A stretch of DNA of 24,622 nucleotides, from positions 1-24,622 of the IMG/VR virus record IMGVR_UViG_3300021185_000129; one strand, written 5' to 3'. Of the stretch, positions 1,556-19,143 are shown piece after piece (within the stretch, counting starts at the first letter, position 1; each line of letters starts with the position of its first letter). The DNA comes from a virus. The position numbers and the translations under genes are program-made. The notes beneath the pieces were generated by a model. That model was not told where the DNA came from. It saw only the letters and a list, made by a program, of their open reading frames with translations, and did no database searches.

Positions 1556-1960
1556 ATGAGTGAAGATAAGAGACATAAACTTAGAGAAAGTAATCTTAAT
1601 AAACTTAACCCATATAAAGAAACTTCTGAAAAATATTTTCCAAATGGTGGTAAAATAAATACAGAAGGAAGAAAGAAAGGAGAAAAAAATAATGTAGTAG
1701 TAAATAAAATTAGCAGAAATGCTTTGACTTGGGCACTAGAAGGTCATTCTACTAAAATCAGAATGGCATTAGATAAATTATTTGACCAAAATCCTGAAGC
1801 ATATATAAATGCAGTTTCAAAACTACTTAACTATACAGTTCCAAAATTATCATCTTCTGAAATTAACGATAACACAACTAAGAAAGTAAAAATTGAGTTG
1901 AATGATGATGTAAGCATTGAGGAGCTAAGAGCAAAACTTGATGACATTGAAAGCAACTGA
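1556..1960 (+). CDS. Putative terminase small subunit
   Basis: A 134-residue basic protein placed directly before the large terminase, with its last 20 bases overlapping that gene's ATG. The N-terminal third is rich in Lys, Asn and Gly (G-G-K-I-N-T-E-G-R-K-K-G-E-K-N-N), consistent with DNA contact. The middle holds predicted helices (NALTWALEGHSTKIRMAL, then PEAYINAVSKLLNY), and the end is acidic, as is common for a segment that docks on the large subunit. In tailed phages the small terminase recognises the packaging site and loads the large subunit. The assignment rests on position, size and this helical, Lys-rich layout. No specific helix-turn-helix can be proved by eye. It could be an unrelated packaging accessory protein. 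Confidence 0.6.
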   Translation: MSEDKRHKLRESNLNKLNPYKETSEKYFPNGGKINTEGRKKGEKNNVVVNKISRNALTWALEGHSTKIRMALDKLFDQNPEAYINAVSKLLNYTVPKLSSSEINDNTTKKVKIELNDDVSIEELRAKLDDIESN

Positions 1961-3398
1961 TGAAGCACTTAGATTTGCATTAGAAAAGAAGTTATGCGAA
2001 TTATCATTTTATGAATTTTTTAAAAAGGCCTGGCACGTTGTTGAACCTTCTATTGAGCTATCTACTAATTGGCATCATAAATATCTATGTGATATTTTAC
2101 AAGAAGAAGCAGAAAGAATAATTGCCAATAAACCTAAAACGAAAGATATTGTTATAAATATACCCTTTCGTTCTACAAAATCACTATTAGTTACAGTTAT
2201 GTTCCCTGTATGGGCTTGGATAAAGAATCCTAAGTTCAGATTCATAACAGCATCATACTCTGCAGACCTTTCAATAGAACACTCTACAAGAAGTAGAGAT
2301 ATAATAAACTCAGAATGGTTTGCAAATAGATGGGGAGATATTTTTCACATCAAAAAAGACCAAAATCTAAAATCAAGATACGAAAATAACTTTTTAGGAG
2401 TAAGAAGAGCAACATCTGTTGGTGGTACTGTTACAGGACAAGGGGGAGATTTCTTAATTGTAGATGACCCTGTATCACCTCAACACGCAGCTTCAGAAAT
2501 AGAAAGAGAAAATGCTAATGAATGGTATAGAACAACATTCTACTCAAGACTTAATAACCCACTCACAGGAATTAGGATAGTTATTATGCAAAGAATACAC
2601 GATAACGATTTAAGTGGATTTTTATTGTATGGAGACGAAAGTAGACTCAAGCATCAACACATTTGCATACCTGCAGAGCTATCAGATGACATTAAACCAA
2701 AAAAATTAGAGAAATATTATGATGAAGATGGCTTGTTTTGGACAGATAGGTTTAGTAAGTCAATTCTTGATGACTATAAACAAGCTTTAGGTAGTTATGG
2801 ATACGCAGGTCAGCTTATGCAAACACCTACACCTCTAAACTCAGGAATGATAAAAGCTGAGTGGCTTAAAATAGACCAATTCAAAATGATAGACATTGGA
2901 GAGCAAGTAACAGTTGATTTTGTTATAGACCCTGCATATACTGCAAATGAAAAAAATGACCCATCAGCACTACTAGCTTATATATTTAAAGATAATAAAT
3001 GGCAAATCATAGATTGTGTTAACGTATATAAAGAATTTCCTGATTTAGTAAGGTTTATAACACAATGGGTAACTAAAAATGGCTATACAAATAGAAGCAG
3101 GATATATGTAGAGCCTAAAGCATCAGGAAAATCAATAGTACAGACACTAAAAAAAGAAACAGGGCTAAATGTAAGAGAAGATAAACCACCATCTAAAGAC
3201 AAAGTAGCTAGAGTACAAGATATCTCTGCGTCTTTAGAATCAGGTAGAGTAAGTTTACTCAATGGGAAATGGAACGAAGAATTTATTCAGCAGTTAGTGA
3301 GGTTTCCCTCTGCTAAACACGACGATATGGTAGATTGTTTAGTAATGGCTATAAATAAAAATATGTGGAATGGCAGTAAAATAGTTTATTTTTCTTAA
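1941..3398 (+). CDS. terL: Terminase large subunit (ATPase and nuclease)
   Basis: A 485-residue DNA packaging motor. The N-terminal ATPase shows a Walker A-like loop at about 75-81 (PFRSTKS, a variant of the usual R-x-x-x-x-G-K-S), a Walker B strand with acids at D175-D176 (FLIVDDP), and a coupling segment IVIMQRIH near 213-220. The C-terminal RNase H-like nuclease shows its acidic residues at D330 (VDFVIDPAYT), E391 (YVEPKASGKS) and D461/D462/D465 (KHDDMVD). Length is normal for the family. I chose the ATG at 1941; a TTG at 1938 would add one residue. The protein cuts concatemeric phage DNA and pumps it into the procapsid through the portal, here encoded 16 kb downstream. Confidence 0.95.
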   Translation: MTLKATDEALRFALEKKLCELSFYEFFKKAWHVVEPSIELSTNWHHKYLCDILQEEAERIIANKPKTKDIVINIPFRSTKSLLVTVMFPVWAWIKNPKFRFITASYSADLSIEHSTRSRDIINSEWFANRWGDIFHIKKDQNLKSRYENNFLGVRRATSVGGTVTGQGGDFLIVDDPVSPQHAASEIERENANEWYRTTFYSRLNNPLTGIRIVIMQRIHDNDLSGFLLYGDESRLKHQHICIPAELSDDIKPKKLEKYYDEDGLFWTDRFSKSILDDYKQALGSYGYAGQLMQTPTPLNSGMIKAEWLKIDQFKMIDIGEQVTVDFVIDPAYTANEKNDPSALLAYIFKDNKWQIIDCVNVYKEFPDLVRFITQWVTKNGYTNRSRIYVEPKASGKSIVQTLKKETGLNVREDKPPSKDKVARVQDISASLESGRVSLLNGKWNEEFIQQLVRFPSAKHDDMVDCLVMAINKNMWNGSKIVYFS

Positions 3399-3464: not shown

Positions 3465-3893
3465 ATGAAACTTAATAGTCTGAACCAAAATCACGAAGAT
3501 ATACTCAAAAAGTATATAAGTTTTGTTCAAAAAACAGTCTATAAGGCTACTGAAGATTATGATGCTAAAAAATTCTTAGATTTTAACGAGGTATTAGAAA
3601 ATATTGTAGATTACACAAATGCTTTTAACAAAATAGTCAAAACATCTAGCAGAAGGACTGAATGGGCTTATATGACTCCAAATTTGATACTTTATTCTTG
3701 CATTGGATTCATTTCAGGACTTAGAAATAAGAAAAATAATGACTTTATGGACGCATTGTCTGAAAATTTATTTGAAAGAACAGTTGACTTCATAGGAGAA
3801 ACTACAGATATACTTGAAGATATAAATATTAAAGAAAATATACAGAAGGAGATACTAACTAACTTAAATAAAATCAATGAGCATAACAATTAA
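3465..3893 (+). CDS. Hypothetical helical protein
   Basis: A 142-residue protein from the ATG at 3465. A TTG at 3441 would add eight Lys/Asn-rich residues, but ATG is preferred. The sequence is mostly amphipathic helix, rich in Lys, Asn, Asp and Glu, with one mildly hydrophobic stretch (NLILYSCIGFISGL, about residues 72-85) that is too short and mixed to call a membrane segment confidently. No family is recognised. Its stop overlaps the next gene's start by 17 bases, so it is probably co-translated with the chaperone-like gene. A role in head-tail joining or tail assembly is possible from context only. Confidence 0.65.
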   Translation: MKLNSLNQNHEDILKKYISFVQKTVYKATEDYDAKKFLDFNEVLENIVDYTNAFNKIVKTSSRRTEWAYMTPNLILYSCIGFISGLRNKKNNDFMDALSENLFERTVDFIGETTDILEDINIKENIQKEILTNLNKINEHNN

Positions 3894-4587
3894 TATTAAA
3901 AGCCAGAATATTGATAGAGATGTTGTCATTCCTGTTGAATGGAAAGACATAACTGTAAAATATTGGGGTGAGCTATCTACTATTATAAAAAAACACTACA
4001 CAGAAGCAACTAAAGATGTAGAAAACAAGGAGAGTCAAAAGCACGACCTTCTTAAAAAGGACTTACTTTCAGATATTACTAAAGATATAAAGCTTACAGA
4101 TGCTCAAACTGTGAAAATGAACTCAGATATATTTAGCTATATCACAGGACTAACCAAAGAGGAGACTTCTTGGGTAGATATAAACCAAGTAAACAAGGTT
4201 TTGTCCTTAGTAAACACTTTAACAGAGGAATACAAGCCAAAAGGACTTAGGTCTTTTGAATTTGAAGGTTCAACATACTACTTTCCATCAGAATACTTTA
4301 GAAAATCAACATATGGCGACTTTATAGAGTCTACTCAGCTAGATATGTATATAAAAGATATGGAAAATGGAAGGTTTGACGTTCTACCTGAACAAATGGC
4401 TATACTATGCAGAAGGCTAGACGAAGAATATGATGATGATGTTATATCTCAAAAAACAGAAAAGTTTAGAGGACTTACAATGGACATCATTTGGGAGTTC
4501 AGTTTTTTTTTGACTCTGCAAACCGAAAAATTAGTGAAACTTACCCCTTCGTTTTTGGGGAAACAACAACAAGTACAGGAGCAGTGA
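3877..4587 (+). CDS. Tail assembly chaperone-like protein (frame-0 product)
   Basis: The frame-0 product has 236 residues and ends at TGA 4585-4587. It begins with a P-V-E-W-K-D-I-T-V-K-Y-W-like segment (residues 19-30), followed by Lys/Glu-rich helices and an acidic patch (RRLDEEYDDD, about 178-187). Near its end lies a run of nine T residues read as agT TTT TTT TTG, a perfect X-XXY-YYZ slippery heptamer at 4503-4509. A -1 shift there leads into the overlapping frame that continues to 4814. Short and frameshift-extended products from one start are the hallmark of lambda gpG/gpGT-type chaperones, which coat the tape measure during tail assembly. The chaperone name is inferred from this arrangement and the tail-gene neighbourhood, not from sequence similarity I can prove. 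Confidence 0.7.
   Translation: MSITINIKSQNIDRDVVIPVEWKDITVKYWGELSTIIKKHYTEATKDVENKESQKHDLLKKDLLSDITKDIKLTDAQTVKMNSDIFSYITGLTKEETSWVDINQVNKVLSLVNTLTEEYKPKGLRSFEFEGSTYYFPSEYFRKSTYGDFIESTQLDMYIKDMENGRFDVLPEQMAILCRRLDEEYDDDVISQKTEKFRGLTMDIIWEFSFFLTLQTEKLVKLTPSFLGKQQQVQEQ
4503..4509 (+). promoter_or_regulatory. Programmed -1 ribosomal frameshift site (T TTT TTT)
   Basis: Nine consecutive T residues (4503-4511) place T-TTT-TTT exactly in the zero frame of the chaperone-like gene. After a -1 slip, translation continues from base 4509 for 101 codons to TAA 4812-4814. Possible stimulatory stems share the G run at 4557-4560: CCCC at 4544-4547, or CCGAAAAA at 4523-4530 with TTTTTGGGG at 4552-4560 (one mismatch). 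Both lie rather far downstream, so their role is doubtful. Confidence 0.7.
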
Positions 4588-4814
4588 ATACAAAAGGACT
4601 ATACAGAACTTATATAAAGCCATTTGGGTGGCTTAACAGCCTTTATATGTTGGCAGAGAAGCAAGTATTCAATATTAGTGGTAAAAACGCCATAGACAGC
4701 GTTAAATACACTAATCTGTACAATGTTCTTACATATTTAAGTTGGATAACAGCAAAAAACACTTATGAGAACAAAGTACAAGAGAAAATACATAATCCAA
4801 ACAAAATAATGTAA
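4509..4814 (+). CDS. Tail assembly chaperone extension (-1 frame part of the fusion)
   Basis: This is the downstream half of the frameshift product. Joined to residues 1-211 of the frame-0 protein it adds 101 residues, giving about 312 in total. The open frame upstream of the slip begins only at a TTG (4491), and its first ATG lies at 4647, deep inside, so independent initiation would lose half the conserved-looking sequence. The segment is Tyr/Asn-rich with a hydrophobic helix pair (FGWLNSLYMLAEKQVF and LYNVLTYLSWITAKN). In lambda the equivalent T region contacts the tape measure. The stop forms TAATG with the next gene's start. If the T run were a sequencing error, this would simply be the true C-terminus of one longer protein. 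Confidence 0.7.
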   Translation, partial: FDSANRKISETYPFVFGETTTSTGAVNTKGLYRTYIKPFGWLNSLYMLAEKQVFNISGKNAIDSVKYTNLYNVLTYLSWITAKNTYENKVQEKIHNPNKIM

Positions 4815-6019
4815 TGGCAATAATAAGATTAACAGATATAGTAGCAACAATGAAGAATAAATGGACTTATGGAGATAAGTTCTTTGGATATACAGATGAG
4901 TTTAACGATAATCATAACACTAGATACCCATCATTACTTATAACACCTCCTGATTCAGTATATCCTGAGGTAACACCAAGAAATGGTTGGGAAGAATACG
5001 CTTTTGAAGTTTATTTTTCAGATTTATACAACAGAACACAACAGCAAAACGAAAGTATTGAGCAGAGATGGGATAATTTACAAGATTTAGCTAACGAATG
5101 GCTAGATATGTTCTTAAAATCATATATAGGCAAACAAGCAGGTAGTACGACAATATCATACCTTACTGACGGCAGTTTAACAATAGAAAGAAACAAAGAG
5201 GTGGCTAATGACCAACTTCTACAAATAAAAATGAATTTTAATTGGAAGGTGTTTAGCAAATGCTTTACTCCTGTGTCAAATTACCCTAATCAGATAAGTG
5301 GATTGACATCTTGGCTAAGAGCAGATAGTAACGCTACATTTAGCATACCTACTAAAAAGGTAAGTGTTTTAGGAGATGGCTCAGGAAATACAAATGGAGC
5401 AGGACAAACAAACAATACTTTACAGCCTTTAAGATATACTTATGGTGGTGGCACTTTAGATAAAACACAATTTACTTTTGATAGCGATTCTTTAGTTTCA
5501 GACAATAACTTTATTACAAGTCAAGAGGTAAACGCACAATTTACAATATTTGAGGTAAGTAAGATTAATGCAGTAGATAATGCTGTATTTGGCTACTATG
5601 ATATGGATACAGGTGCACTTTTAGAAATGGGAACTAACTCTGGAGGTTATTATGAAGTAAAAATGAGTGACGGAACGACAGTAGTTTCTGAAGCGTCATC
5701 AAAAACTCAATTAGGACATTATCATATTGGAGTATTTAGAAAAACATCTAAAAATGTTCATCTTAATTATTATAGTTCTTCAGAGGTTTCTGAGGGAGCA
5801 CACGCTGAAGGAGCTTTTAACATCTATACATCTTTTGAGAATAACAAATTTAGAATTGGCTGTACAAGAACCTCTGATGGACGTATACCTCCTACAGAAA
5901 TAGACGCTAAATATTTAGACGGTAACTTTCAAGAGGTCATAATTTACGATAAAAAATTAACAGATACAGAAACAGCTCAAGTAGTAGACTACTTGAATAA
6001 GAAATATAAAATATATTAA
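4814..6019 (+). CDS. Virion protein with C-terminal LamG-like lectin domain
   Basis: A 401-residue protein with two parts. Residues 1 to about 150 form a mixed alpha/beta domain (YPSLLITPP, then an E-V-Y-F-S-D-L-Y segment and a long helix DNLQDLANEWLDMFLKSYI) that resembles a small tail-completion or neck-type protein, though I cannot name its family. Residues about 160-401 look like a concanavalin A/LamG beta-sandwich: ISGLTSWLRAD at its start and the typical closing strand and helix FQEVIIYDKKLTDTE followed by V-V-D-Y-L-N-K-K-Y. Such domains bind sugars, so this part may decorate the virion surface and hold host or algal polysaccharide. It starts in a TAATG overlap with the chaperone extension. 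Confidence 0.75.
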   Translation: MAIIRLTDIVATMKNKWTYGDKFFGYTDEFNDNHNTRYPSLLITPPDSVYPEVTPRNGWEEYAFEVYFSDLYNRTQQQNESIEQRWDNLQDLANEWLDMFLKSYIGKQAGSTTISYLTDGSLTIERNKEVANDQLLQIKMNFNWKVFSKCFTPVSNYPNQISGLTSWLRADSNATFSIPTKKVSVLGDGSGNTNGAGQTNNTLQPLRYTYGGGTLDKTQFTFDSDSLVSDNNFITSQEVNAQFTIFEVSKINAVDNAVFGYYDMDTGALLEMGTNSGGYYEVKMSDGTTVVSEASSKTQLGHYHIGVFRKTSKNVHLNYYSSSEVSEGAHAEGAFNIYTSFENNKFRIGCTRTSDGRIPPTEIDAKYLDGNFQEVIIYDKKLTDTETAQVVDYLNKKYKIY

Positions 6020-7838: not shown

Positions 7839-10505
7839 ATGATTAAAATACAGTTACTAGACTATAAGTATGTATCAGCAGGAGTTATTAATTGGGACGA
7901 AAGTGTTATTGGAGATTTAGACGTTGGAGACTCAGATGAATTCCCTTTAGCTATGAGTTTTTCAGTAGCAGATGTTAGGAATTTAAACTCAAGAACAGGT
8001 ACTTACAGCAAGACATTTAAAATACCTGCAACTAAAAACAATAACAAAATCCTAAAGTCATCTTACGTTGAAGGCTCTTATATAGAAACAAATACAATCT
8101 CAAATCAAAAACAATGCAGAATAGAGGTAGACGAATCTTTAAGTATAGTAGGGCTTCTTCAATTAACTGCTGTTGGAAAATCTACTGAGCCATTATATTA
8201 TTCTTGTGTGTTTTATGGTAATAATGTTGATTGGGCATCAGCATTAGATAATAAACTATTAAAAGACTTGAGTGTAAATAGTGTTGAAGATGGGAGTGGT
8301 TGGGATAATCTTAATAGCAAAGGAGCAGGTACAGGTATTGGATTACAAGCAAACAGAGATTCTATAATTTCTACTTGGGACGTAGATAATGCAGTTTACA
8401 AGACTCCTTACGGAGGAAGTCAAGCGGCAAGTGATAAGCCTATAGTTTATCCTATTGTAGGTTATGGAGAAAATAATGAAGGAGGTTCTGATGGGACATT
8501 ACAACTACTTAAAACTAAGTGGGACGCTTTAGGAACAGGAAATTCAGGTAATATAGGGTATAGTGGTTGGTTCGATAATGGAGATGAATATCCAACTCCA
8601 ATACCTAGTATGGATTTTAGACCTGCTATATTTGTCTATGACATTATAAAGCAATTATTCAATCAAGAGAACTATACTATTGTATCTACATTTATTGAAA
8701 GTGATTTTTTTAAGGGAATAACAATGCTACTTCCTAACTTTAAACACAATAACGTAACACAAAGAATAGCTGAAAATAGTTTTTATGGTTCTTTTTCAGA
8801 TAAAGCATATGTTGGAAGCTTTCCTTATACTACACCCTCAATACTTGCAACTCAAGATTATTGGCCTTCATTTGTAATTAAATGGAATGGTAATGGAGTT
8901 TCAGGAACAAATAGTTTTGTTGTTGACGACCCTTCCTCAATGTATAGTGATAGTTCAGGGTATTTTACAATACAAGAATATGGTTTTTATGATATAAATG
9001 TGAGTAGTATTGGGGGTTGGCTAGATTCTGTTTGTGCAGGAACATCTGACAGGAATGAAGTTGATTACATTAGAATAAAATGCGAAGTAAGAACTGCAGG
9101 TCAGCAAAGTTGGAACAATATAGGAAATGCTTATGGACTTCCTGATGACAATGGAAGAATATATTATTCTTGTCCTGCTCCTCCTGTAGCTGACAAGCCA
9201 TATGACTTTGAAGATTTGCAAATAGAAAACCAATGGTTAAATAAAAATGATACTATTAGATTTAGACTATCTTATAAGATGGGTCACGGAAATAGTGGTA
9301 GCAGAACTATAGGTTGGGAAAACTATTTATATGGAGGAACAGGGGTAACAGGTATACCAACAGGAGGAACGTCAGGCTCTAATGGAAATATTTCTATAGT
9401 TCATAAGGGAGAAAATGTTGAGTACGGACAGACATTTGACTTGAAAAATGTTATAGACAATGAAAGCACACAATTAGGATTCTTAAGAGGTATTATCCAC
9501 GCTTTTAATCTTCAATTTACAACAGATACAGTTTCAAGAGCTGTTTATATAGAGCCATATAATGATTTTTACAAGAATCAAAACGAAGCAATAGATTGGA
9601 CTTATAAGGTAGACCAATCCCTAAGTCAAGAGGATAAATGGATTCAATCAGACTTAAAAAGAGAAATAATATTTAAGTACAAAACAGATTCTAATGATAA
9701 GGTAGTAGAGCATAGAGGTTTAACATATTGGGACGGAATACTAGATGAATATCCATACAGAGAGTTTTTAAGCAGTGAATTTGAAGTAGGTAAAAGTGTT
9801 TTTGAAAACCCATTTTTTGCAGGTTCTTACAACTCAAGAGATGGCCAAACCTTTGCAGGTTCTGCAACTGTACTGCAAACACCATACAGAGCAAATCTTT
9901 GGGGTCTTTGCGAGTCAGGAGCTGTGCCTACACAGGGTAGTGCCTGTAGACCTGATAAAGGATATAATTTTTTACCTAGATTAGTAAATTATGTTAAAAG
10001 TGCAACTTTTAATACATCATCACCTTCAAGATTTACTGCAGCAGTACAAGGTTGGAGTTCTTCTGATATAACGGTTATAATTCCAGGACTTTCGCAGACT
10101 AATATAAATCCATTCTTATGCTATGCTAATAGTATAGATAATGCCACTTTTATATCATCTCCTAGACAGCCATTGTCTTATGCTAGTGTAACTCAAGGTG
10201 GCTACGATGCTACTAATAATGTTATAAGCACTCCAACTGCTTACAAAGGGCTATATCAAACATATTACCAAGCTATGATTGAGCAATTAAAGTCTAATCC
10301 TAGAATAAAAACAATTTATGTTAATTTAAAATTATCTGATATAACAAATCTTGATTTAAGAAAATTAGTTTATATTGATGGCTATTACTATAGAATAAAC
10401 AGGATTATAGATTACAAGCCAAATAACAATGAAGTAACAAAAGTTGAACTTATGCTATGGTTAGATAAAGGGTATATTCCTGTAGATACAAGTTTTAATA
10501 GTTAA
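7839..10505 (+). CDS. Large tail/baseplate protein (IPATKNN motif)
   Basis: An 888-residue protein. The N-terminal domain includes FSVADVRNLNSRTGTYSKTF followed by K-I-P-A-T-K-N-N (about residues 41-68), a segment I associate with baseplate-hub or tail-associated proteins of Bacteroidota phages. The middle is Gly/Ser/Asn-rich beta structure with several aromatic clusters. The C-terminal part (LKLSDITNLDLRKLVYIDGYYYRINRI, about 825-851 in pieces) resembles the closing beta-barrel of tail hub proteins, where the chain refolds onto the tail tube. No lytic enzyme motif is seen. It is likely the tail-tip or hub component that anchors fibres. The tail assignment is fairly sure; the hub role is inferred. 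Confidence 0.7.
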   Translation: MIKIQLLDYKYVSAGVINWDESVIGDLDVGDSDEFPLAMSFSVADVRNLNSRTGTYSKTFKIPATKNNNKILKSSYVEGSYIETNTISNQKQCRIEVDESLSIVGLLQLTAVGKSTEPLYYSCVFYGNNVDWASALDNKLLKDLSVNSVEDGSGWDNLNSKGAGTGIGLQANRDSIISTWDVDNAVYKTPYGGSQAASDKPIVYPIVGYGENNEGGSDGTLQLLKTKWDALGTGNSGNIGYSGWFDNGDEYPTPIPSMDFRPAIFVYDIIKQLFNQENYTIVSTFIESDFFKGITMLLPNFKHNNVTQRIAENSFYGSFSDKAYVGSFPYTTPSILATQDYWPSFVIKWNGNGVSGTNSFVVDDPSSMYSDSSGYFTIQEYGFYDINVSSIGGWLDSVCAGTSDRNEVDYIRIKCEVRTAGQQSWNNIGNAYGLPDDNGRIYYSCPAPPVADKPYDFEDLQIENQWLNKNDTIRFRLSYKMGHGNSGSRTIGWENYLYGGTGVTGIPTGGTSGSNGNISIVHKGENVEYGQTFDLKNVIDNESTQLGFLRGIIHAFNLQFTTDTVSRAVYIEPYNDFYKNQNEAIDWTYKVDQSLSQEDKWIQSDLKREIIFKYKTDSNDKVVEHRGLTYWDGILDEYPYREFLSSEFEVGKSVFENPFFAGSYNSRDGQTFAGSATVLQTPYRANLWGLCESGAVPTQGSACRPDKGYNFLPRLVNYVKSATFNTSSPSRFTAAVQGWSSSDITVIIPGLSQTNINPFLCYANSIDNATFISSPRQPLSYASVTQGGYDATNNVISTPTAYKGLYQTYYQAMIEQLKSNPRIKTIYVNLKLSDITNLDLRKLVYIDGYYYRINRIIDYKPNNNEVTKVELMLWLDKGYIPVDTSFNS

Positions 10506-10514
10506 ATAAAAAAA

Positions 10515-11246
10515 ATGGATAGACAAATAAATGATAATGGACAGGCTTTACAAAGAGGTTTAGATGTTTTTATATCTGTACCTATATTATCTAATGAATA
10601 CCTTTCATATGGAGATTCTTTTGTGTCTAGTACATTAAGCACAACAACTATAGACACCTCAACTGCAGATTATGCAACTGAAGCAGTAACCTCAGCAAGT
10701 ATGCCTACTTACTCTAACTCTAATTGGCAGAGATACGGAAGTGATGGGACTATATATCCCTCTGTTACTGAGGTTGAGCCATTTTCATCTAACAACATTA
10801 TAGGTATAAACGCAAAAGTAACATCAGGTGTGAGTTCTCATTCAGGAATTTTTCAAGAACTAAAAACACTTATAATAGGTAAAGAATATAATATTAAAAT
10901 AAGTTTTCATCAAGCAAATATATTAGGAACTATTGCTATTTCAAGATTATATAATTCTAATACGTTTCCATCTGTATTGACTCAATCTGATGTAACAAGT
11001 TATGATTTACCTGTAAGTGAGATAAGTCTTGACTTTATAGCTTATAGCGTAAGTGATATACTATTTATAGATTTCTCATCATCTGTAAATGATTCTCAAG
11101 TAAAAATATCATCTATATCGGTTAAAGAAAAGAATAGCTATAGCTTACCTGTTATAGCTGAAATGCCAAGAATAGGATTTTCTAAAGTATTAAGGAGAGT
11201 TTATGACCAATCAATACCTCTTGAGGAGGGAGAAACTATTACATAA
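10515..11246 (+). CDS. Small tail protein with carbohydrate-binding-like domain
   Basis: A 243-residue protein. Residues about 70-200 resemble a CBM4/9-like beta-sandwich: a segment ending G-I-F-Q-E-L, the strand IIGKEYNIKISFHQ, and a closing strand VKISSISVKEKN. The same layout appears twice in the tail-fibre gene at 23168 (GKTYEFSYEI and NVSVREF; GKTYIASVDL and NVSVKEV), which suggests shared ancestry of the module. The C-terminus (PRIGFSKVLRRVYDQSIPL) is unrelated and may dock onto the tail. It follows the 888-residue tail protein and ends in TAATG with the next gene. A glycan-binding decoration of the tail tip is the likely role. Confidence 0.65.
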   Translation: MDRQINDNGQALQRGLDVFISVPILSNEYLSYGDSFVSSTLSTTTIDTSTADYATEAVTSASMPTYSNSNWQRYGSDGTIYPSVTEVEPFSSNNIIGINAKVTSGVSSHSGIFQELKTLIIGKEYNIKISFHQANILGTIAISRLYNSNTFPSVLTQSDVTSYDLPVSEISLDFIAYSVSDILFIDFSSSVNDSQVKISSISVKEKNSYSLPVIAEMPRIGFSKVLRRVYDQSIPLEEGETIT

Positions 11247-11764
11247 TGGCTAAAGATTTACAAATAATAAGAGAAAGTCTGCACAAGGTAGGGCAAAAGT
11301 ATATTTTAGCTTTACAACAAGAACTTGAGTTTCAAAAACATATTGCTTCAGGAAATTTGGCTGAAAGTTTTTTTACAAGAGTTCATAAAGCTAGAGGAAG
11401 CTTAATAATGGATGTGATGAATAATACTCCATATATGTGGATTGTAAATAATGGTTCTTCTCCATTTGAGCCTAGCTATAATGAGATTGCTAAATGGGTA
11501 GAAGAAAAACAATTTAGCTTTGAGAATAAAGAGCATAAACATAATGTAGTGGCTCATATAGTAAGTGAGATAGCTACAAGTGGTTTGCCTACTCCTATGG
11601 GTAAGCTAGTATCATCAAGAAGAAAATTCTTTATAGAGTCTGCGTTTCAAATGGCTAATTCTAGTGGGTTGCAAGAAGCAATGGAACAAGATATATTAAG
11701 ACAGATAGACAAGGAGATAGGAGAGGTAGGAAAAAGTAAGGCGATTCAATTAACAATAAGCTAG
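11246..11764 (+). CDS. HK97 gp10-like head-tail/tail completion protein
   Basis: A 172-residue protein with the general plan of HK97 gp10 / minor tail proteins: an N-terminal helix, then S-G-N-L-A-E-S-F (about 35-42), the strand YMWIVNNGSSPFEPS (about 69-83), a helix containing I-A-K-W-V-E-E-K, and a C-terminal helical region preceded by S-S-R-R-K-F-F-I-E-S-A. Members of this group join the head to the tail or close the tail end. It sits directly before the tape measure gene and begins in a TAATG overlap with the gene before it. The resemblance is by pattern only, so the specific family is moderately sure and the tail role more so. Confidence 0.6.
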   Translation: MAKDLQIIRESLHKVGQKYILALQQELEFQKHIASGNLAESFFTRVHKARGSLIMDVMNNTPYMWIVNNGSSPFEPSYNEIAKWVEEKQFSFENKEHKHNVVAHIVSEIATSGLPTPMGKLVSSRRKFFIESAFQMANSSGLQEAMEQDILRQIDKEIGEVGKSKAIQLTIS

Positions 11765-11773
11765 AACAAACAT

Positions 11774-14700
11774 ATGACATTAAATAGTAAAGTAGCAATA
11801 GAGGTAGAAATCAAAAACATTAAAAAAGTTGCTGATTTAAAAAAAGAGTTAAAGGATTTAAGAAAAGAACAAAGAGAATCTGAAAAACAAGCTAAGACAG
11901 GTCAGTTTACCTCCAAGAAAGCAGAAAAGCAATACATTGCAAATGCTAAAGCTATTAAAACAAAATCTAAAAGCTTAAGAGATTTAAACAAAACCTTAAG
12001 TACAACAGAAAAAGAAACAAAAAAAGTTACAAAAGCTAACAATGGTATGGCAAAGCAGTTTGTCAAAGGAGCTGCGGCTATTGGAATTGTAGTTGGTGCT
12101 TTTAGAGCTGTTACTAGAGTTATAAGCTCTGTAGTAAGTGTGTTTACAGAATTTGAGTTTGTAATGGCTAAAGTAAATGCTGTTTCTGGAGCAACTGAAC
12201 AAGAATTTAAAGCATTGACTAAAACTGCTGAAGAATTGGGTAGAACAACATTCTTTACTGCTACTCAGGTTGGAGAGCTTATGTTAAACTTCTCTAAGCT
12301 TGGTTTTTCAGCACAAGAGATACAAAATGCAGTTGAGCCTACTCTTAATCTAGCAACTGCAACAGGTAGTGATTTGGCTAGAGCAGCAACAGTAGCAGGT
12401 TCTGCTATTAGAGGATTTGGATTAGATGCTGACCAAACAGCAAGAGTTACAGATGTAATGGCTGTGTCTTTCAGTAATTCTGCTATGGATATTGAAAAGT
12501 GGCAAACGTCTATGACGAAAGTTGCTCCTATTGCTAAAGAAGCAGGATTCTCTATTGAAGATACTGCAGCTATTATGTCTCAATTAGCAGATTCAGGTAT
12601 TGAAGCTTCTATTGCAGGTACATCTTTAAGAAACATATTGCTTAAAATGCAAGACCCTGCATCTGATTTATCACAAGCATTTGGTGGTACTATTCACTCT
12701 TTAGACGAGTTGATACCTGCCTTTCAAAAGTTTAGAGAAGAAGGTGGTGGAATGGCTGAAATACTAAGAGTTGTTGATTTAAGACAAGCTGCTGCTTTTG
12801 AGCAAATGCTTAGTAATGTAGATAAGATAGAACAACTTAGAAATAAAATGAACGAAGCTAATGGAGAGTCTGCTAGAATGGCTAAAGTCATTGGAGATAC
12901 ACTTCAGGGTGCTTTTTTAAAGTTTACTTCTGCCGTTCAAGGACTATCTATATCTATAATGAAAGACTTTGCAAAAGGATTTCAAAATGCCATAGAAAAT
13001 GTATCTAAATTTATTACTGTTCTTTCTGAGAATAGCGAAATTATAACAAAAGTAATTAAGGGTATAGCTACTCTTGCTAAAGGATTTGCTGCAGGTTTTT
13101 TAGCTTTAAAAACATTAACTGCAGGTATGTGGCTTTACAGAGCAGGTGTGACTGCTGTTTCGGTAGCAACAGGAACTGCTACTATAGCTACAAAAAGATT
13201 TATTGTAAGTCTTACAGGTCTTAAGGTTGCTATTGCCAAAACAGGTTTAGGACTGTTTGTTATTGCATTAGCAGAAGTGGCTTCTAATTTTTTATTTGCT
13301 AATGATGAAGCAGAAGATTTTAACGAAACTATGGACGTTAGTCTTGACCAAGCTGCTAGACTTAAAAAAATAGAGGAGGACTTGAACAAAGTTATGGTCA
13401 AAAGACTTGCAGATACAAAGAAAGGTGCAGAAATTAATATAGGCTTAATTAGGAGTGAAATACAAGAAAGGAGGAATCTATTACACCAATCTACACTTAA
13501 TTTAGGGGAGTTTGTAGGTAACATAAAAACGATTTCAGAAGAAGAAGAAAAAGCTCTTAATAAAGCTATTAAAAGACTTGAAACAAGGCTAGAGCTTGAA
13601 ACCGAAAACCTAAAACAAATAAAACAAAGACTTGCTGATGAAAAAGCAATGGAGAATGATTTATTAACTATTCAGAAAAAGAAATTAGATGATGCCAATA
13701 AAATGGCAGCAACAACTGAAGAACAGCAAACAGCTAAAAATAAGTTAATAACCACTATACAAAAAGAAATTGACAGGCTTAATGCTTTAGGAAAAGCTGA
13801 AAAAGAAGTAAAAAAAGAAAAGGTAGACAATACAGATGCTGATTGGGAGAGAATAGAGGTGATGAAAACTGTATTGTCAGGAGCTAGAGAATTAGAAGAA
13901 GCAGAAAAGCTATTAAGGGATTTAGCTATAGAGAGAGCACAAGCAGAATTAGATGCTATACCTATTACTATTATGAACGGAAATATTCGTTTAGAGCTTG
14001 AGCAAAAAATACTAGACTTAAAGCTTAAAAACCGAAAAGAAAGTGAAAAAGGAGAAAAACAAGATGAGAAATCTTTAAAGAAAGGTATAAAAGCATATTC
14101 AGATTTAGGTAGTGCATTACAAGAGGTGGCAGGAGAAAATGAAAAGTTAAATGGAATTAGAAAAGCAGGGGAAGCTATTACTAAGGCAGCGGCAATAGCA
14201 GAGTCTATTTTAAATTTACAAAAATCTATAGCACTTGTTACTGAAGGAAAATTGACTATAGCAAAGTTATTAGGCACAAAGGCTACAATAGCAGGTACAG
14301 CAGCTACAATAGCTGATACTATAGCAGAAGTAGTAAGTATAATACCTAAAGCAATATCTGCAGTTTTAAGTTCTATGAAAGGGCCTTTTGGTTTGTTCGC
14401 AGGTATAGCGGCATTTGCATTTATCTCTAAACTTTTAAAAATGAAGTTTGAAGATGGAGGTATAGTTGATGATGGTAGTAAGTTTGCAGATGGTGGAATG
14501 GTACACGGCCCTAGCCACGCACAAGGAGGTGTTAAGTTTGCTGTAGGAGGTAGAGTAAATGAATTAGAAGGTGGAGAAGCAGTTATCAATAAAAGGAGTA
14601 CAGCAATGTTTAGAAATCAACTTTCAGCTATGAATCAAGCAGGTGGTGGTGTTAAGTTTGCTGATGGTGGTTTATTAAGCTCTCCTCAATTTACTGAAGC

Positions 14701-14833
14701 TCAATTTGGTGCTACTAATCAATCACAAATGCTAGGAGCTATGCAAGGTCAAAGAAAGGTAGTAGTAGTAGAATCAGACATAACAGACAGTCAGTCAACT
14801 GTTAGTGTAATACAATCTAATGCAACATTTTAA
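11774..14833 (+). CDS. Tail tape measure protein
   Basis: A 1019-residue protein that sets tail length and is probably ejected with the DNA. Residues 10-100 are a Lys/Glu-rich coiled coil. Residues about 120-300 match the TP901-type tape-measure core (FEFVMAKVNAVSG, TFFTATQVGELMLNFSKLGF, then A-G-T-S-L-R-N-I-L-L-K-M-Q-D-P). Hydrophobic, potentially membrane-inserting stretches lie at about 420-510 and 835-890, separated by more coiled coil. The C-terminus has four K-F-x-x-G-G repeats (KFEDGG, KFADGG, KFAVGG, KFADGG) and an E-L-E-G-G-E-A-V-I motif common at tape-measure ends. At roughly 0.15 nm per residue, a rule known for this family, the tail would be about 150 nm. The start has an ACATATG context and no SD. 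Confidence 0.95.
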   Translation: MTLNSKVAIEVEIKNIKKVADLKKELKDLRKEQRESEKQAKTGQFTSKKAEKQYIANAKAIKTKSKSLRDLNKTLSTTEKETKKVTKANNGMAKQFVKGAAAIGIVVGAFRAVTRVISSVVSVFTEFEFVMAKVNAVSGATEQEFKALTKTAEELGRTTFFTATQVGELMLNFSKLGFSAQEIQNAVEPTLNLATATGSDLARAATVAGSAIRGFGLDADQTARVTDVMAVSFSNSAMDIEKWQTSMTKVAPIAKEAGFSIEDTAAIMSQLADSGIEASIAGTSLRNILLKMQDPASDLSQAFGGTIHSLDELIPAFQKFREEGGGMAEILRVVDLRQAAAFEQMLSNVDKIEQLRNKMNEANGESARMAKVIGDTLQGAFLKFTSAVQGLSISIMKDFAKGFQNAIENVSKFITVLSENSEIITKVIKGIATLAKGFAAGFLALKTLTAGMWLYRAGVTAVSVATGTATIATKRFIVSLTGLKVAIAKTGLGLFVIALAEVASNFLFANDEAEDFNETMDVSLDQAARLKKIEEDLNKVMVKRLADTKKGAEINIGLIRSEIQERRNLLHQSTLNLGEFVGNIKTISEEEEKALNKAIKRLETRLELETENLKQIKQRLADEKAMENDLLTIQKKKLDDANKMAATTEEQQTAKNKLITTIQKEIDRLNALGKAEKEVKKEKVDNTDADWERIEVMKTVLSGARELEEAEKLLRDLAIERAQAELDAIPITIMNGNIRLELEQKILDLKLKNRKESEKGEKQDEKSLKKGIKAYSDLGSALQEVAGENEKLNGIRKAGEAITKAAAIAESILNLQKSIALVTEGKLTIAKLLGTKATIAGTAATIADTIAEVVSIIPKAISAVLSSMKGPFGLFAGIAAFAFISKLLKMKFEDGGIVDDGSKFADGGMVHGPSHAQGGVKFAVGGRVNELEGGEAVINKRSTAMFRNQLSAMNQAGGGVKFADGGLLSSPQFTEAQFGATNQSQMLGAMQGQRKVVVVESDITDSQSTVSVIQSNATF

Positions 14834-17897: not shown

Positions 17898-18476
17898 ATG
17901 GCAATAACAAATGGAATAAATATAGCTTGTGATGATTTACAAGCATCAGGTGGGATAAGAAATATTCTTATTAGGACTTGGGCAACAGGAGATGCAATTA
18001 CTTATGTAAATAGTGCTACTTCTCACTCGATATCTAGCATTACTAATGGTGGTTCTGATGCTACTTGGTTTAATTATGAGTTTAAGAATGAATTACCATC
18101 TCTAACTGTTACTGCAGCTAAAGAAAATGGTTCTACTTCTTATGAATGTGCTTTAAGTTTTATGATGCCTGAGATGGATGACTCTAAAGCAGCGGCTTTG
18201 CAATCACTTATGGATACTTGTATGATGGTAATTGCAGTTGGAAACAATGGTAAAAATTATGTATTAGGTGTAAGCCAAAAGTATAGTAATGAAAAAGCAA
18301 CTCTTAGAAATCAAACTTATGCTAGTATGACAGGAGCAGAGGGTGCTTCAGGAGCTGCTTATAATGATGATAATGGTTGGACTGTAACTATGGGCTGTAA
18401 GCAATGGGAAGCTCCAAGATTATATACAGGAACTATAAATTTATTTACTGCAACAAGCACGTCTACTACATCTTAA
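17898..18476 (+). CDS. Tail-tube-like protein, copy 1
   Basis: A 192-residue protein, beta-rich, with small and polar residues, directly after the major capsid gene. It shares a plan with the next gene: M-A-I-x-x-G-x-x-I-x-C-x-D-L-Q-A-x-G-G at the start, S-L-T-V-T-A near the middle, and G-W-T-V-T-M-G-C-K-Q-W-E-A-P-R-x-Y-x-G-T-I near the end. Major tail proteins that stack into the tube are of this size and sit downstream of the capsid gene. A decoration or head-fibre protein is the main alternative. The start is in a strong A-rich context (AATAAATAATGG). Expression probably requires read-through of the hairpin upstream. Confidence 0.65.
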   Translation: MAITNGINIACDDLQASGGIRNILIRTWATGDAITYVNSATSHSISSITNGGSDATWFNYEFKNELPSLTVTAAKENGSTSYECALSFMMPEMDDSKAAALQSLMDTCMMVIAVGNNGKNYVLGVSQKYSNEKATLRNQTYASMTGAEGASGAAYNDDNGWTVTMGCKQWEAPRLYTGTINLFTATSTSTTS

Positions 18477-18504: not shown

Positions 18505-19143
18505 ATGGCAATAGCAGATGGAATGGCAATAAATTGTTCAGACTTACAAGCAGTAGGAGGTACAAGATTTATAGCAATTAGAAAATGGATTGATACTGAC
18601 ACAGTTGAGTTTGATGATACTGAACACGATATAACATTTATAAAACAAGATTCAGCAACACCAGGAACAGCTGAACCTGCAGAATGGGGAGTATATGAAA
18701 GCAGAATAGAATCTTCTTCTTTAACAATTTCAGCAACAAATGAGGGTAAAGAATTTACTACTTATGATTGTGCAGTTTCTTGGTTTATACCTGGACTTAC
18801 TGCAGCACAATTTAAACAACTTCATTCATTTGAAGGTGGAGATTGCTTAATGGTTATGGTTATTGATAACAATGACAATACTTCAGGCACTACAGCTCCT
18901 TCAGCTAGTGAAGCAAGTAATAAAGTTATTGGAGTTTCAAACACTTTACAAAATCAAGACAAGCCTTCAAGAACTCAGCAGTATTGTACTTTAAGGTCTA
19001 TTGAAGGTGGAACAGGAGCTGCTTTTTCTGATGAGATAGGAGTAACTGTAACTGTAGGTTGTATGATGTATGAAACGCCTAGAAACTATGCAGGTACTAT
19101 AGCAATAGATTCTGATGGTTTAGGATTAACTACAACATCATAA
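18505..19143 (+). CDS. Tail-tube-like protein, copy 2 (paralogue)
   Basis: A 212-residue paralogue of the preceding protein. It keeps MAIADGMAINCSDLQAVGG at the start, the R-I-E-S-S-S-L-T-I-S-A strand, a Y-D-C-A-V-S strand, and G-V-T-V-T-V-G-C-M-M-Y-E-T-P-R-N-Y-A-G-T-I at the end. Extra residues lie in the region around 120-140 (DNNDNTSGTTAPSASEASNK), which may form a surface loop. The pair arose by tandem duplication. One may form the tube and the other cap it or decorate it, or both may mix. The gene has an A-rich start context (AATAAAATAAAATGG) and is followed by an intrinsic terminator. Confidence 0.65.
   Translation: MAIADGMAINCSDLQAVGGTRFIAIRKWIDTDTVEFDDTEHDITFIKQDSATPGTAEPAEWGVYESRIESSSLTISATNEGKEFTTYDCAVSWFIPGLTAAQFKQLHSFEGGDCLMVMVIDNNDNTSGTTAPSASEASNKVIGVSNTLQNQDKPSRTQQYCTLRSIEGGTGAAFSDEIGVTVTVGCMMYETPRNYAGTIAIDSDGLGLTTTS

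Follow-up and report, generated by a model that had tools for sequence, protein, structure and literature searches.

The viral DNA analyzed here (the window, a stretch of 24.6 kb) contains two overlapping reading frames that are joined at a run of nine Ts, which raises the question of whether one start gives two proteins through a programmed change of frame and, if so, what these proteins do and which machinery slips. We consider it quite probable that programmed slippage from one start does produce two proteins and that they have a chaperone-like role, whichever agent slips.

Organization of the overlapping reading frames

The zero-frame ORF (positions 3877-4587, plus strand) encodes a 236 amino acid G-like protein, identified in the ORF list and supported by relatives and profile analysis. 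It contains the nine-T run at positions 4503-4511, read in this frame as AGT TTT TTT TTG, and, as pointed out in the initial annotation of this DNA, a T_TTT_TTT heptamer (4503-4509) lies in the zero frame within the run. The -1 frame is uninterrupted from upstream of the run to a stop codon at 4812-4814; past the slip it is open for 101 codons, also as described earlier, and these codons and the stop form the T-like extension (4509-4814, plus strand; ORF list, dN/dS, and profile analysis). In contrast, the opposite slip would terminate immediately at a +1-frame TGA at the end of the run (4511-4513).

Normal decoding would yield the 236 amino acid G-like protein, and a shift to the -1 frame on the T run would yield a 312 amino acid G-T fusion, consisting of zero-frame residues 1-211, common to both products, followed by 101 residues (...EFSFFFDSANRK...). 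The addition of one U to the mRNA leads to the same 312 amino acid product as the -1 slip. The initial annotation had joined the entire 236-residue protein to the 101-residue extension; both frames stand, but the size of the product is 211 + 101 = 312 residues, and not 337.

Conservation of the T run and of the frame relation

We looked for the same T run and frame relation in related phages, as the initial annotation had proposed, in a tally that took in only junctions with at least seven Ts. The 228 distinct junctions collected from relatives comprise 226 with T9 and two with T10 (none with T7 or T8), and all 228 show the -1 relation. The codon phase of the run differs between junctions, with 119 and 108 in the two main phases and one in the third. 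In 226 of the 228, the +1 frame closes no more than 2.7 codons from the run, so that slips in the opposite direction end at once. Two further scans located the extension by tblastn instead of by the T run, which shows that the constancy of the run is not a search artefact: close relatives from IMG/VR had T9 and the -1 relation in 112/112 distinct junctions, and a second set of 85 distinct junctions, obtained by searching viral contigs and bacterial genomes with the extension, was -1 throughout (84 T9 and one T10). The window has no T9 run besides that at the junction, and outside the junctions only 13 runs (12 T9 and one T10) occur in 1.87 Mb of related sequence, against T9 or T10 in 228/228 junctions. 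The nine-T junction is therefore not a product of chance, and the earlier observation of it is confirmed as correct, far beyond chance.

The extension itself is under strong purifying selection, as judged from dN/dS values of 0.03-0.11 past the zero-frame stop in the comparisons where they were calculable; no such pattern was seen in the remaining two frames. Where the frames overlap just past the run, conservation is also better in the -1 frame than in the zero frame, indicating that selection switches frame at the run. The initial annotation had held that a downstream frame lacking conservation would speak against programmed slippage, and the opposite was found.

Distribution of the family

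The zero-frame protein was conserved in 23 relatives at the first search, and a search of viral contigs with the extension returned at least 575 relatives. A Foldseek search with the predicted model of the 236 amino acid protein matched uncharacterised phage proteins, including gp38 of Nonlabens phage P12024S, which was picked out in its record by protein length and place. The gp38 gene has the T9 run and an unannotated -1 extension. The junction is present in the cultured phages P12024S/L, and P12024S-type relatives share the design (41 T9, one T10). Profile comparison showed that the window and P12024S-type families are homologous in both their N halves (E 2.6e-9, probability 96) and their extensions (E 1e-10, probability 97). 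In the P12024S record (NC_018271, locus L227, 23136-23900), the -1 extension of gp38 ends in ...SDLGKVMNPKR, and GenBank lists only hypothetical proteins there.

In bacterial genomes, the extension search gave nine matches, including Galbibacter pacificus and Dysgonomonas sp., whose pairs are homologous in both halves by profile comparison and carry T9 in every case, the Dysgonomonas N half matching both families; no member of the close family was found in bacterial genomes. The Dysgonomonas copies of the pair (L299, 2260-5276; L300, 4372-5180) adjoin ordinary bacterial genes; a 701 amino acid coiled-coil-like ORF lies immediately upstream of the pair in L299, and L300 has an ORF that by eye resembles DUF6712. 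This suggests that the copies are prophage remnants or edges. Judging from these relatives, the host of the window's virus would be a Bacteroidota bacterium.

Sequence searches of named phages with the window's own protein gave no match; there were two sub-threshold hits, and the stronger of them, which came from a faecal phage, turned out to be unrelated. A weak fold match to gp10 of Flavobacterium phage 6H (NC_021867, locus L228) was set aside, as the downstream frames join uncleanly: on the minus strand at 9586-10927, some 300 unannotated bases come after gp10, with seemingly more than one frame change and no T9 run.

RNA polymerase or ribosome as the slipping agent

Two mechanisms could produce the same two proteins. 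In transcriptional slippage, the RNA polymerase would add one U on the T9 run, which we put at about an even chance. A conserved run of at least nine A/T at an ORF junction, the threshold for such slippage taken from PMC1088944, is present here (226 T9 and two T10 among 228), and in many bacterial genomes selection against slippage becomes evident at a run length of nine (PMC1088944). In a purely ribosomal mechanism of the type described for lambda gpG/gpGT, to which we give somewhat less than an even chance, tandem tRNA-Phe slippage would take place on U_UUU_UUU, and the extra Ts would simply follow from encoding F-F-F or F-F-L in both frames. A small chance is left for both agents acting or for some other one.

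The ribosomal mechanism gains from the T_TTT_TTT heptamer, which is correctly phased in every junction, from the description of the tailed-phage G-T frameshift as ribosomal (PMC5009743), and from the shift-prone behavior of UUN codons in E. coli (PMC4066793). It is at odds with the length of the run, since a phase-2 site needs seven Ts, yet T7 or T8 occurs in 0/228 junctions of a tally that required at least seven. Nor did we detect a stimulator, which is common at ribosomal -1 sites but not obligatory: no stable or covarying downstream RNA structure was found (mean z-scores near zero), the consensus RNA fold contained 12 weak pairs without two-sided covariation, and an SD-like GGGAG is not present in all relatives. 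Moreover, SD-like stimulation is unlikely in Bacteroidia, whose ribosomes are blind to SD sequences (PMC9976891).

Part of the T run could be fixed by nothing more than coding in two frames. When the codon of the third Phe was used to examine the extra Ts, TTT was found in 8/8 cases versus 29/37 elsewhere, a difference that is not significant at cluster level; at that level, the argument from exactly nine Ts against dual coding is suggestive, not decisive.

Just 5' of the slip site, a GAGTTC element (4495-4500, plus strand) is frozen at synonymous sites across 58 nucleotide clusters: GAG, which makes up approximately one third of the gene's Glu codons, is kept in 58/58, and TTC, approximately one fifth of its Phe codons, in 57/58. 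The element is also frozen in loci with a -1-frame stop there. Its position directly upstream of the heptamer speaks for a ribosomal slip, but its conservation fits either mechanism. A weak 5-bp pairing (UGGAY/GUUCR) is possible near GAGTTC, with no two-sided covariation.

Taken together, the invariant nine Ts in two codon phases, the lack of a detectable stimulator, and the SD-blind hosts lead us to lean slightly toward the RNA polymerase. The wider proposal is that polymerase slippage on T9, and not ribosomal frameshifting, would determine the ratio of short to long chaperone in a large family of tailed Bacteroidota phages; it is put forward tentatively, as its probability falls distinctly short of even.

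Genomic context and putative function of the pair

The genes around the pair, all on the plus strand, place it at the head of a tail module. The window encodes, in order, the terminase large subunit (1938-3398; PF17289, E 2.4e-13), a small uncharacterised gene known from the ORF list that overlaps the start of the G-like ORF (3468-3893), the pair, a virion protein (4814-6019; phrog_10356 virion structural protein, E 1.8e-4, and synteny), a tail completion/Neck1-like gene (11246-11764; phrog_5, E 1.9e-5), and the tape measure protein (11774-14833; PF10145, E 9.6e-38). Close relatives keep this order in the portion that fits within the fetched loci. In P12024S and Galbibacter, the order is terminase, pair, two small genes, and tape-measure-like proteins, the second small gene being neck-like in P12024S. 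The initial annotation had placed the gene right after the large terminase and far upstream of the tape measure. It is indeed near the terminase, although the 3468-3893 gene intervenes, and it does lie 7 kb before the tape measure on the same strand; this position, puzzling at first reading, is the rule across the phage group, as seen from the synteny of relatives.

Two observations concern other genes of the window. The 401 amino acid product of 4814-6019 appears to combine a small N-terminal part resembling tail proteins with the C-terminal phrog_10356 match, and its N-terminal part may replace the small tail gene located after the pair in P12024S. In addition, the adjacent genes 17898-18473 and 18505-19140, located between capsid and portal genes, have similar starts, and the product of the former weakly matches phrog_19091, as does P12024S gp3; the two genes probably encode duplicated tail-tube-like proteins.

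From its architecture, we infer that the pair works like gpG/gpGT and represents a new protein family that follows the same logic. This reading is based on a short and a long frameshifted protein, a small extension that is mostly helical in the predicted model, a conserved location between the terminase and the tape measure at the start of the tail module, and the finding of no other recognisable chaperone candidate among the tail genes. The overlapping frames and conserved frame change of gpG/gpGT genes are found here, with the -1 relation in every junction and purifying selection on the extension. In such a system, the G-like protein would coat the tape measure, with the tail-tube protein being recruited by the T domain.

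Membership of a known chaperone family found no support in sequence or solved-fold searches. The initial annotation could name no similarity to known chaperones, in agreement with our profile searches of both frames, in which the pair had no significant match to chaperone families (Pfam, PHROG, and NCBIfam, as well as lambda gpG and HK97 gp13); the window's own protein likewise matched no significant family in Pfam, PHROG, NCBIfam, or PDB sequences. Predicted models of the two halves, folded separately with moderate confidence (pLDDT 68 and 65), found no match in a PDB fold search, and a search of viral folds with the extension model was almost empty. Two viral models named tail assembly chaperone matched weakly in Foldseek (E 0.37, with a query of moderate pLDDT).

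These results also bear on a second reading, in which recoding does occur but the two products serve as something other than chaperones, for instance as a virion protein of which a minority of copies carry a C-terminal extension. The lack of a family or solved-fold match to chaperones speaks for this reading, and so does the location of the gene, which in the window and its relatives is not between the major tail protein and the tape measure; other phages also have capsid and tail proteins that arise by frameshifting (PMC5009743). This reading accounts less well for a small, mostly helical extension attached by a frame change late in the first protein, for a position that is conserved along with the neck-like and tape measure genes, and for the lack of any other recognised chaperone candidate among the tail genes. 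We regard it as rather unlikely and favor the chaperone-like role.

Need for slippage

The extension could also be a separate protein produced by internal initiation, either at the TTG at 4491-4493 or at a later codon. This TTG, which the initial annotation did not mention, is the sole conventional alternative start in the -1 frame before the run, and a TTG precedes the run in many close relatives as well as in the window. Nevertheless, at least 20 of the 112 close relatives, for which internal initiation is thereby excluded, and 72 of the 85 others lack any -1-frame start codon (ATG, GTG, or TTG) before the run. In 12 of the initial 85 loci, moreover, a TGA is found two codons ahead of the run; internal initiation is thus not the general route. 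The first ATG in the downstream frame is at 4647, as noted previously, and a start there would halve the conserved domain. Internal initiation was therefore rejected as very improbable, and the earlier preference for a fusion by slippage over a separate start is borne out.

Finally, the least probable reading, that the junction is a sequencing or assembly error (homopolymers are prone to error, and a tenth T would join the frames) or a broken gene whose true sequence is a single ORF, is for practical purposes refuted by the tblastn-located sets and the tally of 228 concordant junctions: no single continuous frame, which the initial annotation would have taken as a sign of such an error, was found among the related junctions examined, the T10 relatives (L240 and L295) retain the -1 relation, and conservation extends to the zero-frame product as well as to the -1 product.

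Novelty and implications

No report of this frameshifted pair was found in the literature searched, most subscription journals lying outside its coverage. A programmed frame change in a tail chaperone-like gene is of a known kind; what is new is the protein family, along with an unusually rigid T9 signal. The analysis points to a likely pair of tail assembly chaperones in common and poorly annotated Bacteroidota phages, and reveals a recoding signal that annotation has overlooked even in the cultured phage P12024S. If polymerase slippage were the mechanism, the G:GT ratio would be set in a manner new for tail chaperones, and tail building would be tuned at the level of transcription. The retention of T9 over deep divergence makes transcriptional versus ribosomal control of this ratio directly testable in SD-blind hosts.

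Comparison with known systems

Among characterized tail chaperones, lambda gpG/gpGT and HK97 gp13 with its -1 product resemble the pair in having overlapping ORFs linked by a -1 change late in the first, in lying on the strand of the tape measure gene, and in sharing an N-terminal part between the short and long products. The pair differs from them in showing no sequence similarity, in its invariant T9 run and larger G-like part, and in its location after the terminase, whereas the lambda and HK97 genes directly precede the tape measure.

Another close counterpart is P12024S gp38 (phrog_32199 for the N half), which is homologous in both halves and shares the T9 run, the -1 relation, and a place adjoining the terminase. 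Its T run is in codon phase 1 (phase 2 in the window), its zero-frame product has 175 amino acids, and it is annotated as a hypothetical protein only.

With respect to the slip itself, Shigella mxiE, Thermus dnaX, and IS-element sites have A/T runs like that of the window, at which the polymerase adds bases. These are unrelated genes in which slippage has been shown experimentally, whereas that of the window is deduced from sequence; mxiE, where an added U gives the longer product, provides a precedent for slippage of the RNA polymerase at the T9 junction.
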